Source: Acidimicrobiales bacterium | Lineage (GTDB): Bacteria > Actinomycetota > Acidimicrobiia > Acidimicrobiales > Palsa-688 | DNA: 64,000 bases | Reading direction: 5' to 3' | Assembly (NCBI GenBank): GCA_035533095.1 | Contig: DATLUM010000071.1 | Location: 1 to 64,000, forward strand | Shown here: piece by piece, positions 8,721 to 41,451 of the stretch | How positions within the stretch are numbered: the first letter of the stretch is position 1 | Layout: the number at the start of each line of letters is the position of its first letter | Program-made: the position numbers and the translations under genes | Notes under the pieces: generated by a model | The model's database searches: none | Seen by the model: only the letters and a program-made list of their open reading frames with translations | Told to the model about the DNA's origin: nothing

Positions 8721-8796
8721 GACGCAAGAAGATCCTAACCGGGTGACCGCACCACGTGACCAGCACGCCGGCGTCAGTGAGCCTGTGTCGGGGAGA

Positions 8797-8845
8797 CTGT
8801 TGTGTCGGGAGGCTGTTGTGTCGGGAGGCTGTTGTGTCGGGGAGG
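8797..8845. repeat. Three tandem 16-17 bp repeats abutting the tRNA-Pro 3' end
   Basis: The 16-base unit CTGTTGTGTCGGGAGG occurs at 8797-8812 and 8813-8828. A 17-base version with one extra G occupies 8829-8845. The last copy runs into the tRNA-Pro gene: its final nine bases are the tRNA 3' terminus (complement strand). A decayed fourth copy, CTGTGTCGGGGAG, lies at 8783-8795. The tandem array therefore repeats the tRNA acceptor end plus its 3' flank. Mechanistically it looks like slippage or repeated insertion at the tRNA 3' end. Confidence 0.85.
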
Positions 8846-8911
8846 CGGGATTCGAACCCGCGGCCTCCTGCTCCCAAAGCAGGCGCGCTAACCAAGCTGC
8901 GCTACTCCCCG
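8837..8911 (-). tRNA. tRNA-Pro (anticodon TGG)
   Basis: A 75-base cloverleaf on the minus strand. The acceptor stem CGGGGAG pairs with CTCCCCG, the anticodon loop contains TGG (GCTTTGGGAGC arm), the T-arm GGGTTCGAATCCC is intact and the discriminator is A. CCA is not encoded. The 3' flank is the tandem array described above. Confidence 0.97.
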
Positions 8912-36573: not shown

Positions 36574-38037
36574 CTAGCCCAGCGTTTCTACGAAACGCTC
36601 CAGCTGCTTGAGGTTCCGGCACTCGTACGCCCCGTCGCAATGGGTGGAGTACTGGCTCACGATCGAGTCGCCGGTGTCCCAGTAGGAGCGCGGCTCGGGG
36701 TTGAGCCAGTACACGTGGCGCGCCTTCTTCGACATCTCCGCCAGGACCCAGGCCTGCGCCGCGTGGTAGTTGTTGCGCGCGTCGCCGAGCAGCAGCACGG
36801 TCGTCTTCGGGTTGATATCCCGGCCCCACCGCTCCCAGAACGCCTCGAACGCGTGCCCGTAGTCGGAGTGCCCGTCGACCCAGATGACGTCCGCTTCGGT
36901 GTTGATGCGGTGGATCGCCGCGCCGATGTCCTCCGTGGCCTTGAAGTAGTCGGTGACCTCATCGATCCCGTCGATGAACACAAACGATCTAACCCGGCTG
37001 AACTGCGAGCTGATCGCGTACACCATCTGCAGCGTGAAGCGGGCGAAGGCTGCAACCGACCCGGAGATGTCGGCGATGACCATGATCTCCGGCTTCGAAG
37101 GGCGCGGGTAGCGGAACTTCGGGTCCGCCGGCACACCTCCGTACGACAACGAGTGCCTCACCGTGCTGCGGAAGTCAAGCGGCCCCTTCCGCCCGTGGCG
37201 CCGCTTACGGGCGAGGCGCACAGCCAGCTTGCGGGTCAGGGGCGCGATCGCCTTGCGTAGAGCGGTCAACTCGTCGCGGCTGGCGTGCATGAAGTCGATG
37301 TCCTCGGGCAGCGGCTTGCGCAGAGATTTCGCCACCGCCTCCGCGCCCCTGTCATCGACCAGACGCCGGCGGATCTCGGCTTCTATCTCCCGGCGAAGTG
37401 AGCCGAGGCGGGCCTCGTACTCCTCCTTGGCCAGGCGCTCCTCCAACTCCGTCAGCTCGCCCGGCGCCTTGTCGCGTGCAGACTGCATCATCTTCTCGAG
37501 CACCGAGTCGAGGTCGAGCTGGCGCAGCGTCCGGTAGAGGTAGTAGGTGCCGCCGACGGGCCTCCCCGGTTCCATGCCCGCGAAGCGGGTGACCGCCGCG
37601 CGGGCGATGGCGCGCAGCATGGCGTCGTTGCCGTCCATGAGCGCCTTGAAGAGGAGTTCGGCGAGCTGCTCGGGTGTCAGCCCCTCCGTGCCCCCTGCGG
37701 ACTCGCCTTCGCGCGAACCGAGGATGTCATTGACGAGCTCGTCGACGGAGGAGCCGGACTCGTCGTCGGTCAGGCGGTACTCACGTCCTCGCAGTGAGAA
37801 GTAGACCTCGAAGACGGTCTCGAAGGCCTTCCAGTGCGCGTTGTTCTTCACCAGAGTCGCTGCGAGGGCGTACTTGAAGGCGTCGCGGTCGTCGAGGGGG
37901 ATGTGAGTCAACGCTTCCATCGCGTCGAGATTCTCGGTGAGGCTCACCGGGATGCCGGCGGTGCGCAGCTCCTTGACGAACCCTGACAGCGACTCGAGCA
38001 GCCCCGCGCTGCTGCCGGCGGGAAGCTCTGTGCTCAT
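36574..38037 (-). CDS. VWA-domain protein, CoxE-like
   Basis: A 487-residue protein with a C-terminal von Willebrand A domain of the CoxE type. The metal-ion-dependent adhesion site is DISGS (323-327), preceded by KPEIMVIA, and later GRDINPKTTVLLLGDARNNY. The N-terminal two thirds are helical and charged. VWA proteins of this type act with MoxR AAA+ ATPases, and the MoxR gene lies directly upstream on the same strand. Together they probably insert metals or remodel target complexes. The target is not evident; no CO dehydrogenase genes are present. The start region is a tandem repeat containing two 5-codon ORFs. Confidence 0.9.
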   Translation of the reverse strand: MSTELPAGSSAGLLESLSGFVKELRTAGIPVSLTENLDAMEALTHIPLDDRDAFKYALAATLVKNNAHWKAFETVFEVYFSLRGREYRLTDDESGSSVDELVNDILGSREGESAGGTEGLTPEQLAELLFKALMDGNDAMLRAIARAAVTRFAGMEPGRPVGGTYYLYRTLRQLDLDSVLEKMMQSARDKAPGELTELEERLAKEEYEARLGSLRREIEAEIRRRLVDDRGAEAVAKSLRKPLPEDIDFMHASRDELTALRKAIAPLTRKLAVRLARKRRHGRKGPLDFRSTVRHSLSYGGVPADPKFRYPRPSKPEIMVIADISGSVAAFARFTLQMVYAISSQFSRVRSFVFIDGIDEVTDYFKATEDIGAAIHRINTEADVIWVDGHSDYGHAFEAFWERWGRDINPKTTVLLLGDARNNYHAAQAWVLAEMSKKARHVYWLNPEPRSYWDTGDSIVSQYSTHCDGAYECRNLKQLERFVETLG

Positions 38038-38065
38038 TGAATTGGGCTCATTGAATTGGGCTCAT
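38034..38065 (-). repeat. Two tandem 14-bp repeats forming micro-ORFs that lead into the VWA gene
   Basis: On the minus strand the unit ATGAGCCCAATTCA occurs twice and is followed by ATGAGC, the true gene start. Each copy opens a 5-codon ORF, MSPIQ, whose TGA overlaps the next ATG as ATGA. The first ORF starts at 38065, the second at 38051, and the VWA gene at 38037. The upstream MoxR stop is 10 bases before the first ATG, and no Shine-Dalgarno motif lies in between. This predicts a chain of termination and re-initiation. Confidence 0.85.
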
Positions 38066-38075
38066 CGACTCGGCA

Positions 38076-38984
38076 TCACCGGCTGGAGCCCGAGGCCGAC
38101 CCGGCGAGATCCTTCGCCGCCTTGTCGATGTCGGACTGGTACTTCAACAGGATGTGCAGGGTCTCGGTCGCGGTCTCCGCGTCGACGGACTGGATGCCGA
38201 GCAGGAGCAGCGTGCGTGCCCAGTCGAGTGTCTCCGACACCGACGGAGCCTTCTTGAGCTCGAGGTTGCGGATCGACCGAACTATGCGGACCACCTCGTC
38301 CGCGAGGGACTCGGAGATGCCGGGCACCCGCGTCAGCACGATCTCGCGCTCGCGGTCGATGTCCGGGTAGTCGATGTGCAGGAACAGGCAGCGCCGCTTG
38401 AGCGCCTCGGAGAGCTCACGGGTGTTGTTGGAGGTGAGGAACACCAGCGGGATCTGCGTGGCGCTCACGGTGCCGAGCTCGGGGATCGATACCTGGTAGT
38501 CGGAGAGGATCTCGAGCAGCAGCGCCTCGGTCTCCACCTCGACGCGGTCGACCTCGTCGATGAGTAGCACGACCGGGTCGTCCGCCCGGATCGCCTCGAG
38601 CAACGGCCGGGTGAGGAGGAACGGCTCGGAGAAGATGTCCTCCTCGATGTCGGACCACGTGCCGCCGCCTTCGTTCTCGGAGACGCGCTGTGCCTGGATA
38701 CGCAGCAGCTGCTTCTTGTAGTTCCACTCGTAGAGGGCCTTGGACTCGTCGAGGCCCTCGTAGCACTGCAGGCGGATGAGGCGGGCGCCGGTCAGCTCGG
38801 CGACCGACTTGGCCAGCTGGGTCTTGCCCGTACCCGCGGGCCCCTCGACCAATACCGGCTTCCCGAGGCGCTCGGCCAGGTACACGACGCCTGCGATGCC
38901 CTCGTCGGCGAGGTAGTTGACCCTGCGCAGCCCTTCGCGGACGGCAGCGGGGGACTCGAACAGGCTGGGCGCGGCGTCGCTCAC
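38076..38984 (-). CDS. MoxR-family AAA+ ATPase
   Basis: A 302-residue AAA+ ATPase of the MoxR family, which act as chaperone-like machines together with VWA proteins. Walker A is GPAGTGKT (48-55) and Walker B LIDEVDR (141-147). FLTSNNTRELSEALKRRCLF carries the sensor-1 Asn and arginine finger region. It is coupled to the VWA gene. A divergent spacer of 213 bases separates it from the SPFH gene, so the two units may share regulation. GTG is the start, preceded by AGAAGGA. Confidence 0.95.
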   Translation of the reverse strand: MSDAAPSLFESPAAVREGLRRVNYLADEGIAGVVYLAERLGKPVLVEGPAGTGKTQLAKSVAELTGARLIRLQCYEGLDESKALYEWNYKKQLLRIQAQRVSENEGGGTWSDIEEDIFSEPFLLTRPLLEAIRADDPVVLLIDEVDRVEVETEALLLEILSDYQVSIPELGTVSATQIPLVFLTSNNTRELSEALKRRCLFLHIDYPDIDREREIVLTRVPGISESLADEVVRIVRSIRNLELKKAPSVSETLDWARTLLLLGIQSVDAETATETLHILLKYQSDIDKAAKDLAGSASGSSR

Positions 38985-39197: not shown

Positions 39198-40385
39198 ATG
39201 GCCCTTCTCGGACGTGAGTTCATTGCGGTCCCCGACGACCGCAAGCACCAGATCGTCTATAAGTGGCCGGACCTGAGCATCCGTCGCTATACGAAGGCGA
39301 TCGTCAACGCGGACGAGCTGGCGCTGTTCGTGAACACCGGGCAGGTCGTGGCGACGATGGGACCCGGCCGGCACGACATCGACGCGGACGAGATGCCGGG
39401 CCTCGGCGTCCTCATCGACGCGGCTACGGGCGGCCGTGCCTACAGGGCGGAGCTGTACTTCGTCGGAACACGCGAGTACCCGGGGAACACCTTCGGCGGC
39501 CGCATCGACGACGTGCAGGACCCGCAGACGGGGATGATCGTGACGTTGCGGGTCTTCGGGGACTATTCGATCCAGGTGAAAGACCCCGCAGCTCTGATCA
39601 CCAACCTCACCGGGACGGTCGACGTCGCCGACAACGACTCCATCACCGGCTGGGTCTCCGACCAGCTGCTCAAGGTCCTGCGCACCCACATGACGGTGCA
39701 GATAGTGCAGAACGGCTGGCCGATCCTGGGCCTTTCCGCGTACACGCCGCAGATCGAGACCGAGGTCATCGCCGCCGGCAACGCGCAACTACAGCCCTAC
39801 GGCGTCGCGCTCGTGCGGATGGGCAACTTCGACATCAACCTGTCCGATCAGGACGAGGCGCAGCTGAAGAACCTCGCGCGCGACACCGCGTACTCGCGAC
39901 TCGCCGGCAGCTTCAACCAGTACGCCGCCGGGGAGGCCGCACTCGGTGCGGGGCAGGGCATGGCCAAGGGTGGTGCGGCCGTGGGAGGCGCGTTCCTGGC
40001 CGCCGGGGTGGGAGCGGCCGGTCAGGCCGCGACTGCTGCACCCGGCCCCACGCCACCGCCGGGACCGGGATTCGTCGGGGGAGGCGCCGGCTTCACCGGT
40101 GGGCAGGCGCCGGCACCCGCCGCCGGCGGTCAGGCAGTAACAGCCGCCGGCGGTCAGGCAGCACCCGCCGCCGGCGGTCAGGCAGCACCCGCCGCCGGCG
40201 TGGAGTGCCCGAACTGCAAGGCGCACAACCCCGCCGGGGCCAAGTTCTGCTCGTCGTGCGGGACCCGCCTAGAGGCACCGGCGCCAGCGTCGGTGGTCTG
40301 CCCCAACTGCAACGCCGAGAACGTCCCGAGCGCGCGCTTCTGCTCGTCGTGCGGCACCGCGCTCGGGCAGGCACCGCCGGCATGA
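39198..40385 (+). CDS. YdjI-like SPFH protein with C-terminal double zinc ribbon
   Basis: A 395-residue SPFH (band 7) protein of the YdjI/virion-core-like group. The SPFH region spans about residues 25-235 (LFVNTGQVVATMGPGRHDID, GMIVTLRVFGDYSIQV). A Gly/Ala linker with three 24-bp tandem repeats (40119-40190; octapeptide AAGGQAAP) leads to two zinc ribbons: CPNCKAHNPAGAKFCSSCG and CPNCNAENVPSARFCSSCG. In Bacillus the homologous YdjI is recruited with PspA to stressed membranes. AGGAG lies 7 bases before the ATG. It overlaps the next gene by ATGA. Confidence 0.9.
   Translation: MALLGREFIAVPDDRKHQIVYKWPDLSIRRYTKAIVNADELALFVNTGQVVATMGPGRHDIDADEMPGLGVLIDAATGGRAYRAELYFVGTREYPGNTFGGRIDDVQDPQTGMIVTLRVFGDYSIQVKDPAALITNLTGTVDVADNDSITGWVSDQLLKVLRTHMTVQIVQNGWPILGLSAYTPQIETEVIAAGNAQLQPYGVALVRMGNFDINLSDQDEAQLKNLARDTAYSRLAGSFNQYAAGEAALGAGQGMAKGGAAVGGAFLAAGVGAAGQAATAAPGPTPPPGPGFVGGGAGFTGGQAPAPAAGGQAVTAAGGQAAPAAGGQAAPAAGVECPNCKAHNPAGAKFCSSCGTRLEAPAPASVVCPNCNAENVPSARFCSSCGTALGQAPPA
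40119..40190 (+). repeat. Three tandem 24-bp repeats inside the SPFH gene
   Basis: Units at 40119-40142, 40143-40166 and 40167-40190, with a partial fourth to 40200, encode repeats of Ala-Ala-Gly-Gly-Gln-Ala-x-x. They lengthen the flexible linker between the SPFH domain and the zinc ribbons, and copy number could vary between strains. In-frame coding and perfect adjacency exclude a CRISPR array. Confidence 0.9.
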
Positions 40386-41366: not shown

Positions 41367-41451
41367 TTTTTGTGGGACGGATCCGTTTTGCGGGACGGAC
41401 ACGTCGTCAGGTGACGGCTGTGTCCCACAAAACGTCACCGTCCCACAAAAA
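41367..41451. terminator. Bidirectional hairpin region between convergent genes
   Basis: TTTTTGTGGGACGG (41367-41380) is exactly complementary to 41438-41451. Inside, TTTTGCGGGAC (41386-41396) nearly matches the complement of GTCCCACAAAA (41422-41432). Four copies of a TTTTGNGGGAC motif are thus arranged two per strand. T-runs occur at both outer ends, which suits a bidirectional terminator for the Tim44 gene and the opposite peptidoglycan hydrolase gene. Next to it, GGGCCGTATCCCG is repeated directly at 41456-41468 and 41477-41489. Confidence 0.6.

Follow-up and report, generated by a model that had tools for sequence, protein, structure and literature searches.

Among described systems, the closest are the MIRU/VNTR repeats that mycobacteria carry at ATGA junctions within operons. 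MIRUs are repeats at operon junctions that carry an ORF coupled at −4 nt to the gene that follows (PMC12548453), and the ETR-F array of rnc-fpg1 sits where other mycobacteria have just a few bases (PMC2734929). Related principles are found in termination-reinitiation gene pairs with ATGA or TGATG overlaps and in leader minigenes. Here, we describe a 14-bp tandem repeat between a MoxR gene and a VWA gene, which resembles a MIRU in its workings without belonging to that class.

The window, which is the whole stretch of 64,000 nucleotides analyzed (contig DATLUM010000071.1 of an uncultured Acidimicrobiales bacterium), contains on its minus strand a MoxR-type AAA+ ATPase gene and, adjoining it in the same direction, a gene with a VWA/CoxE domain (Table 1). 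According to the Pfam matches and the conserved neighbors, they constitute a MoxR-VWA chaperone pair. The two genes lie side by side throughout the Acidimicrobiales relatives, and MoxR relatives are present in 32 of the 32 family genomes. For the VWA gene, the ATG at 38037 is the sole usable start: there is an in-frame TGA upstream, and no in-frame ATG, GTG, or TTG precedes the conserved LPAGSSAGLLE. Alternative VWA starts were thus ruled out.

Table 1. Features of the MoxR-VWA junction in the window
Feature	Position	Strand	Basis and details
MoxR-type AAA+ ATPase gene, 302 aa	38076..38984	−	ORF call; stop TGA 38076-38078; Pfam AAA_5 (E 2.2e-13), AAA_3 (8.8e-7)
Mini-ORF 1, MPSR (ATG CCG AGT CGA TGA)	38062..38076	−	Direct reading and chain search
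Mini-ORF 2, MSPIQ	38048..38065	−	Repeat copy 1 = 38052-38065; direct reading, TRF, chain search
Mini-ORF 3, MSPIQ	38034..38051	−	Repeat copy 2 = 38038-38051; TGA overlaps VWA ATG; direct reading, TRF, chain search
14-bp tandem array	38032..38065	−	TRF: period 14, 2.43 copies, 100% matches, score 68; takes in ATGAGC of VWA start
VWA (CoxE-like) gene, 487 aa	36574..38037	−	ORF call; Pfam VWA_CoxE (5.6e-45)

Direct reading of the minus strand from MoxR to VWA gives GGTGATGCCGAGTCG ATGAGCCCAATTCA ATGAGCCCAATTCA ATGAGCACAGAG; the unbroken reading across the junction includes GGTGATGCCGAGTCGATGAGCCCAATTCAATGAGCCCAATTCAATGAGCACAGAG. Two exact tandem copies of ATGAGCCCAATTCA (38038-38065, minus strand) are followed by the ATGAGC of the VWA start (38037). 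The exact duplication, the coding of MSPIQ by both copies, and the ATGA overlaps had been reported in a preliminary description of this DNA and were borne out by direct reading and TRF. It had also proposed that ribosomes leaving MoxR reinitiate along the repeats before the VWA gene. This chain is real in the sequence and coupling is plausible, but the description was incomplete, since it overlooked the MPSR mini-ORF. The ATG of MPSR overlaps the MoxR TGA (TGATG) and its TGA overlaps the ATG of the first MSPIQ mini-ORF; without MPSR, the chain would stop short of MoxR. The TGA of each MSPIQ mini-ORF overlaps the following ATG by 4 nt. The links are therefore −1 nt from MoxR to MPSR and −4 nt from MPSR to MSPIQ, from there to the second MSPIQ, and from this to VWA. 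In this reading, the entire 38-nt gap is covered by the three mini-ORFs, with nothing untranslated in between.

At every link, the downstream start lies at −4 or −1 nt from the upstream stop, identical to the overlaps of ATGA/TGATG termination-reinitiation gene pairs (PMC6728339, PMC10666635). Unlike in such direct pairs, the links pass through three ORFs of 4 to 5 codons instead of from gene to gene. As with leader minigenes (mg2 of axe-txe) and the minicistrons of bicistronic designs, a tiny nonfunctional ORF would feed the next gene in cis (PMC8708949). Leader minigenes have their own Shine-Dalgarno sequence (SD), whereas the mini-ORFs of the window are several in series, are without a clear SD, and would be fed by the upstream gene. 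The likeness to MIRU/VNTR repeats such as the rnc-fpg1 ETR-F array lies in a short repeat placed between operon genes that, in relatives, are just a few bases apart. In line with MIRUs, the insertion is at a start codon in an operon junction, its internal ORF couples the downstream gene at −4 nt, and tandem copies are possible (PMC12548453, PMC2734929). In contrast to MIRUs, which have units of 40 to 100 bp dispersed at many loci, the window's unit measures 14 bp, was found at one locus (with up to 3 mismatches allowed), and forms an ORF of its own in each copy.

The 14-bp array is a real duplication and not a chance match, as about 1e-5 exact 34-base arrays of period 14 are expected by chance in 64 kb (arithmetic from base composition). 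The relay chain by itself is no evidence of design. A unit that starts with ATGA, has a length of 2 modulo 3, and contains no earlier stop gives an ATGA-linked chain automatically on tandem copying, and 39% of dinucleotide-shuffled spacers, with the ATGA of VWA kept fixed, still gave some relay. The earlier explanation, a unit length indivisible by 3, is incomplete; the decisive property is that 14 is 2 modulo 3. Each 14-bp copy adds exactly one step, and the VWA reading frame is independent of the copy number, so that only the count of reinitiation steps would change.

In its own genome, the 14-mer is present at a single locus (up to 3 mismatches), and a search of 396 further genomes from the order gave only three loose 2-mismatch matches, in three genomes. 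This ruled out a dispersed mobile element. We also rejected a derivation of the repeat from the VWA start by copying and mutation, since ATGAGC alone is shared and the other 8 bases match poorly. In a 1.18-Mb sample of this genome, we counted 44 exact tandem duplications of 10 to 60 bp, roughly half of which fall outside predicted genes. Of the 44, three touch predicted starts; the one at the MoxR-VWA junction duplicates a start codon, and the other two do not.

The window also contains other repeats. A 16-bp tandem array with 3.8 copies (8784-8846) abuts the 3′ end of tRNA-Pro(TGG) (8836-8911, minus strand), and its copies look like partial duplicates of this end. In the intergenic region 41368-41450, there are four GTCCCRCAAAA copies, two per strand (0.01 expected in the window), and no second instance of this paired arrangement was found in the same genome. 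Furthermore, an in-frame 24-bp tandem repeat (40113-40200) in the gene 39198-40385 encodes a linker of the GQAAPAA type, which is followed by two CxxC motifs resembling zinc ribbons.

We read 98 distinct MoxR-VWA junctions, the window's included, and 96 of them passed the spacing and start filters. By spacing, 20 of the 96 overlap by 4 nt, 5 by 1 to 2 nt, and 3 by more, while 47 have a gap of 0 to 14 nt and 21 a gap of at least 15 nt. That short overlaps are common in relatives suggests that coupling is the usual state there. The spacers differ in nearly every genus, and a conserved junction was therefore rejected. The preliminary description had suggested comparing the copy number in relatives; the 14-bp repeat was absent from all 97 other junctions, which presented many unrelated arrangements and no copy-number series of the unit.

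In a tree built from the joined VWA and MoxR proteins, the window's pair groups with that of its sister, G014 (support 99/97), where the two genes overlap directly through GTGA. Gaps of 14 to 16 nt are seen in the next relatives, and mostly of 0 to 16 nt in other close relatives. Without the two repeats, the window's junction would have a +10-nt gap, which is normal for the family, so the 28 extra bases are most simply explained by a recent insertion and duplication in the window's lineage. The duplication thus seems to be lineage-specific and apparently young.

Among the junctions read, only one other has a tandem repeat. This junction (L051), from a distant relative, contains a different 15-bp repeat, GTGACCCGGCGCGGA, in an exact 48-bp array with additional degenerate copies. 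Because 15 is divisible by three, its copies join in a single, longer mini-ORF of 27 codons; this shares a GTGA overlap with the MoxR stop and runs as far as the VWA start. This repeat-borne coupled mini-ORF is independent of the window's array. Two further junctions (L132 and L030) have single mini-ORFs of approximately 19 to 28 codons, much like the L051 arrangement, and the 71-nt spacer of L007 (G020) harbors a 20-codon mini-ORF starting 12 nt after the MoxR stop. The start of the latter, GGTCGACATGAGCG, is similar to that of VWA, GGTCGACGTGACCG, which gives the impression of a duplicated start region.

Relays recur at other MoxR-VWA junctions: at those with gaps of at least 15 nt, we observed 7 full relays, the L051 array among them, versus 2.9 expected from shuffles (P 0.002), uncorrected for the relatedness of the junctions compared. 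In operon pairs of the window's own genome with gaps of 15 to 60 nt and NTGA starts (1.18-Mb sample), there were 13 relays versus 7.3 expected (P 0.01), and in the distant complete genome G037 (800 kb), 15 versus 10.4 (P 0.017). In these two genomes, relays in operon gaps of 15 to 60 nt are approximately 1.4 to 1.8 times commoner than in shuffled spacers, a small excess that was not found in gaps of 61 to 120 nt. The gene starts in these counts were taken from a crude gene finder, and the control offsets gave too few events. The relay excess across gapped operon junctions is therefore modest and suggestive only; it could come in part from remnants of the 3′ ends of upstream genes or from misassigned starts.

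The anti-SD pairing at the VWA start is weak (−1.9 kcal/mol; as weak or weaker in 25 of 122 comparable gaps of 15 to 60 nt), and consequently VWA needs either coupling or SD-less initiation. In E. coli, shifting gene pairs from −1 to +38 nt costs them 80 to 100% of reinitiation (PMC10666635). With a +38-nt gap and a weak SD, VWA is thus expected to be uncoupled from MoxR unless the gap is bridged, and the relay could restore the coupling. We tentatively favor the view, to which we give slightly less than even confidence, that the 14-bp duplication widened the gap and that the mini-ORF relay keeps VWA coupled to MoxR with a loss at each step. This junction changes fast, and a tandem duplication there, with slippage between direct ATGAGC repeats as the probable cause, would have taken the gap from roughly +10 to +38 nt. 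Owing to the start and length of the unit, each copy would have brought a 5-codon ORF with a stop overlapping the following start, and together with MPSR the copies would make the whole gap a relay. Ribosomes leaving MoxR would then get to the VWA start, with its poor SD, through a series of local rounds of termination and reinitiation; some would be lost at each step, and VWA would stay coupled.

We infer from the sequence both the use of the mini-ORFs by ribosomes and the direction of the effect on the VWA level. Very short ORFs may lose peptidyl-tRNA, which counts against the relay. Moreover, each step is without an SD, so the relay could instead attenuate VWA. Removal of the SD cut reinitiation by 60 to 90% in most E. 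coli pairs tested (PMC6728339), and four such events in succession, all without an SD, might therefore deliver very few ribosomes. By analogy, a junction that lowers VWA relative to MoxR may fit hexamer-to-monomer partners, as there are approximately 350 RavA versus 90 ViaA molecules per cell (PMC3893208) and one NorQ hexamer per NorD (PMC9976466).

The same junction could be explained by a neutral recent duplication, with VWA started mainly de novo and independently of an SD, and with incidental mini-ORFs. Indeed, the VWA region from −20 to −1 is unusually AT-rich (65%, the genome median being 35%; such a value is reached at only 4 of 511 starts), the start is fairly open (accessibility 0.50 versus a median of 0.40; rank 94 of 511), the centroid fold leaves the whole repeat in a loop, and intergenic exact tandem duplications are ordinary in this genome, as counted above. 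However, the fold is no better than those of shuffles (z −0.3), for which reason a special RNA fold at the junction was rejected. In addition, overlaps and very short gaps prevail at the MoxR-VWA junction in relatives, which speaks for usual coupling, and relay mini-ORFs recur there above the shuffle expectation. We consider neutrality possible but somewhat less likely than the relay. The preliminary description had proposed that gained or lost 14-bp units alter the number of lossy reinitiation steps and hence tune the MoxR:VWA ratio. Such tuning would agree with the one step added per copy, with the asymmetric numbers of MoxR partners (RavA/ViaA, PMC3893208; NorQ/NorD, PMC9976466), and with operon-junction VNTRs that vary between M. 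tuberculosis isolates (PMC2734929), but the array is short, with 2.4 copies only, and the relatives lack a copy-number series; we regard tuning as unlikely.

Post-termination 70S ribosomes might also slide from the MoxR stop to any nearby ATG, the mini-ORFs being merely competing starts. Models and an in vitro reinitiation at +73 nt, discussed in PMC12548453, are in favor of such scanning. Nevertheless, native gene pairs reinitiate little at +38 nt in vivo (PMC10666635), and the in vitro displacement assay needed an SD (PMC12548453), which is weak at VWA, making scanning very unlikely here. Finally, the second repeat copy might be an artifact, since the assembly is a draft of 142 contigs, presumably a metagenome bin like most named relatives. 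Yet ordinary reads are far longer than the 34-bp array, which is embedded in a 126-kb contig and is of a size that short-read assemblers resolve, so that an assembly error is extremely improbable.

Extending the favored relay, one may imagine that serial SD-less mini-ORF "ribosome ladders" repeatedly evolve at these actinobacterial operon junctions and that their copy number sets the ribosome flow from MoxR to VWA, which at present we think improbable. The window's junction departs only slightly from translational coupling as already described. If ribosomes do use the relay, it would illustrate how an operon can put up with a slippage-prone insertion between two of its genes: a unit whose length is right modulo 3 would bring its own stop-start overlap and thereby repair the coupling. 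The relay excess in two genomes and at MoxR-VWA junctions leads to a testable general question, namely, whether operon gaps are bridged by selected mini-ORFs.
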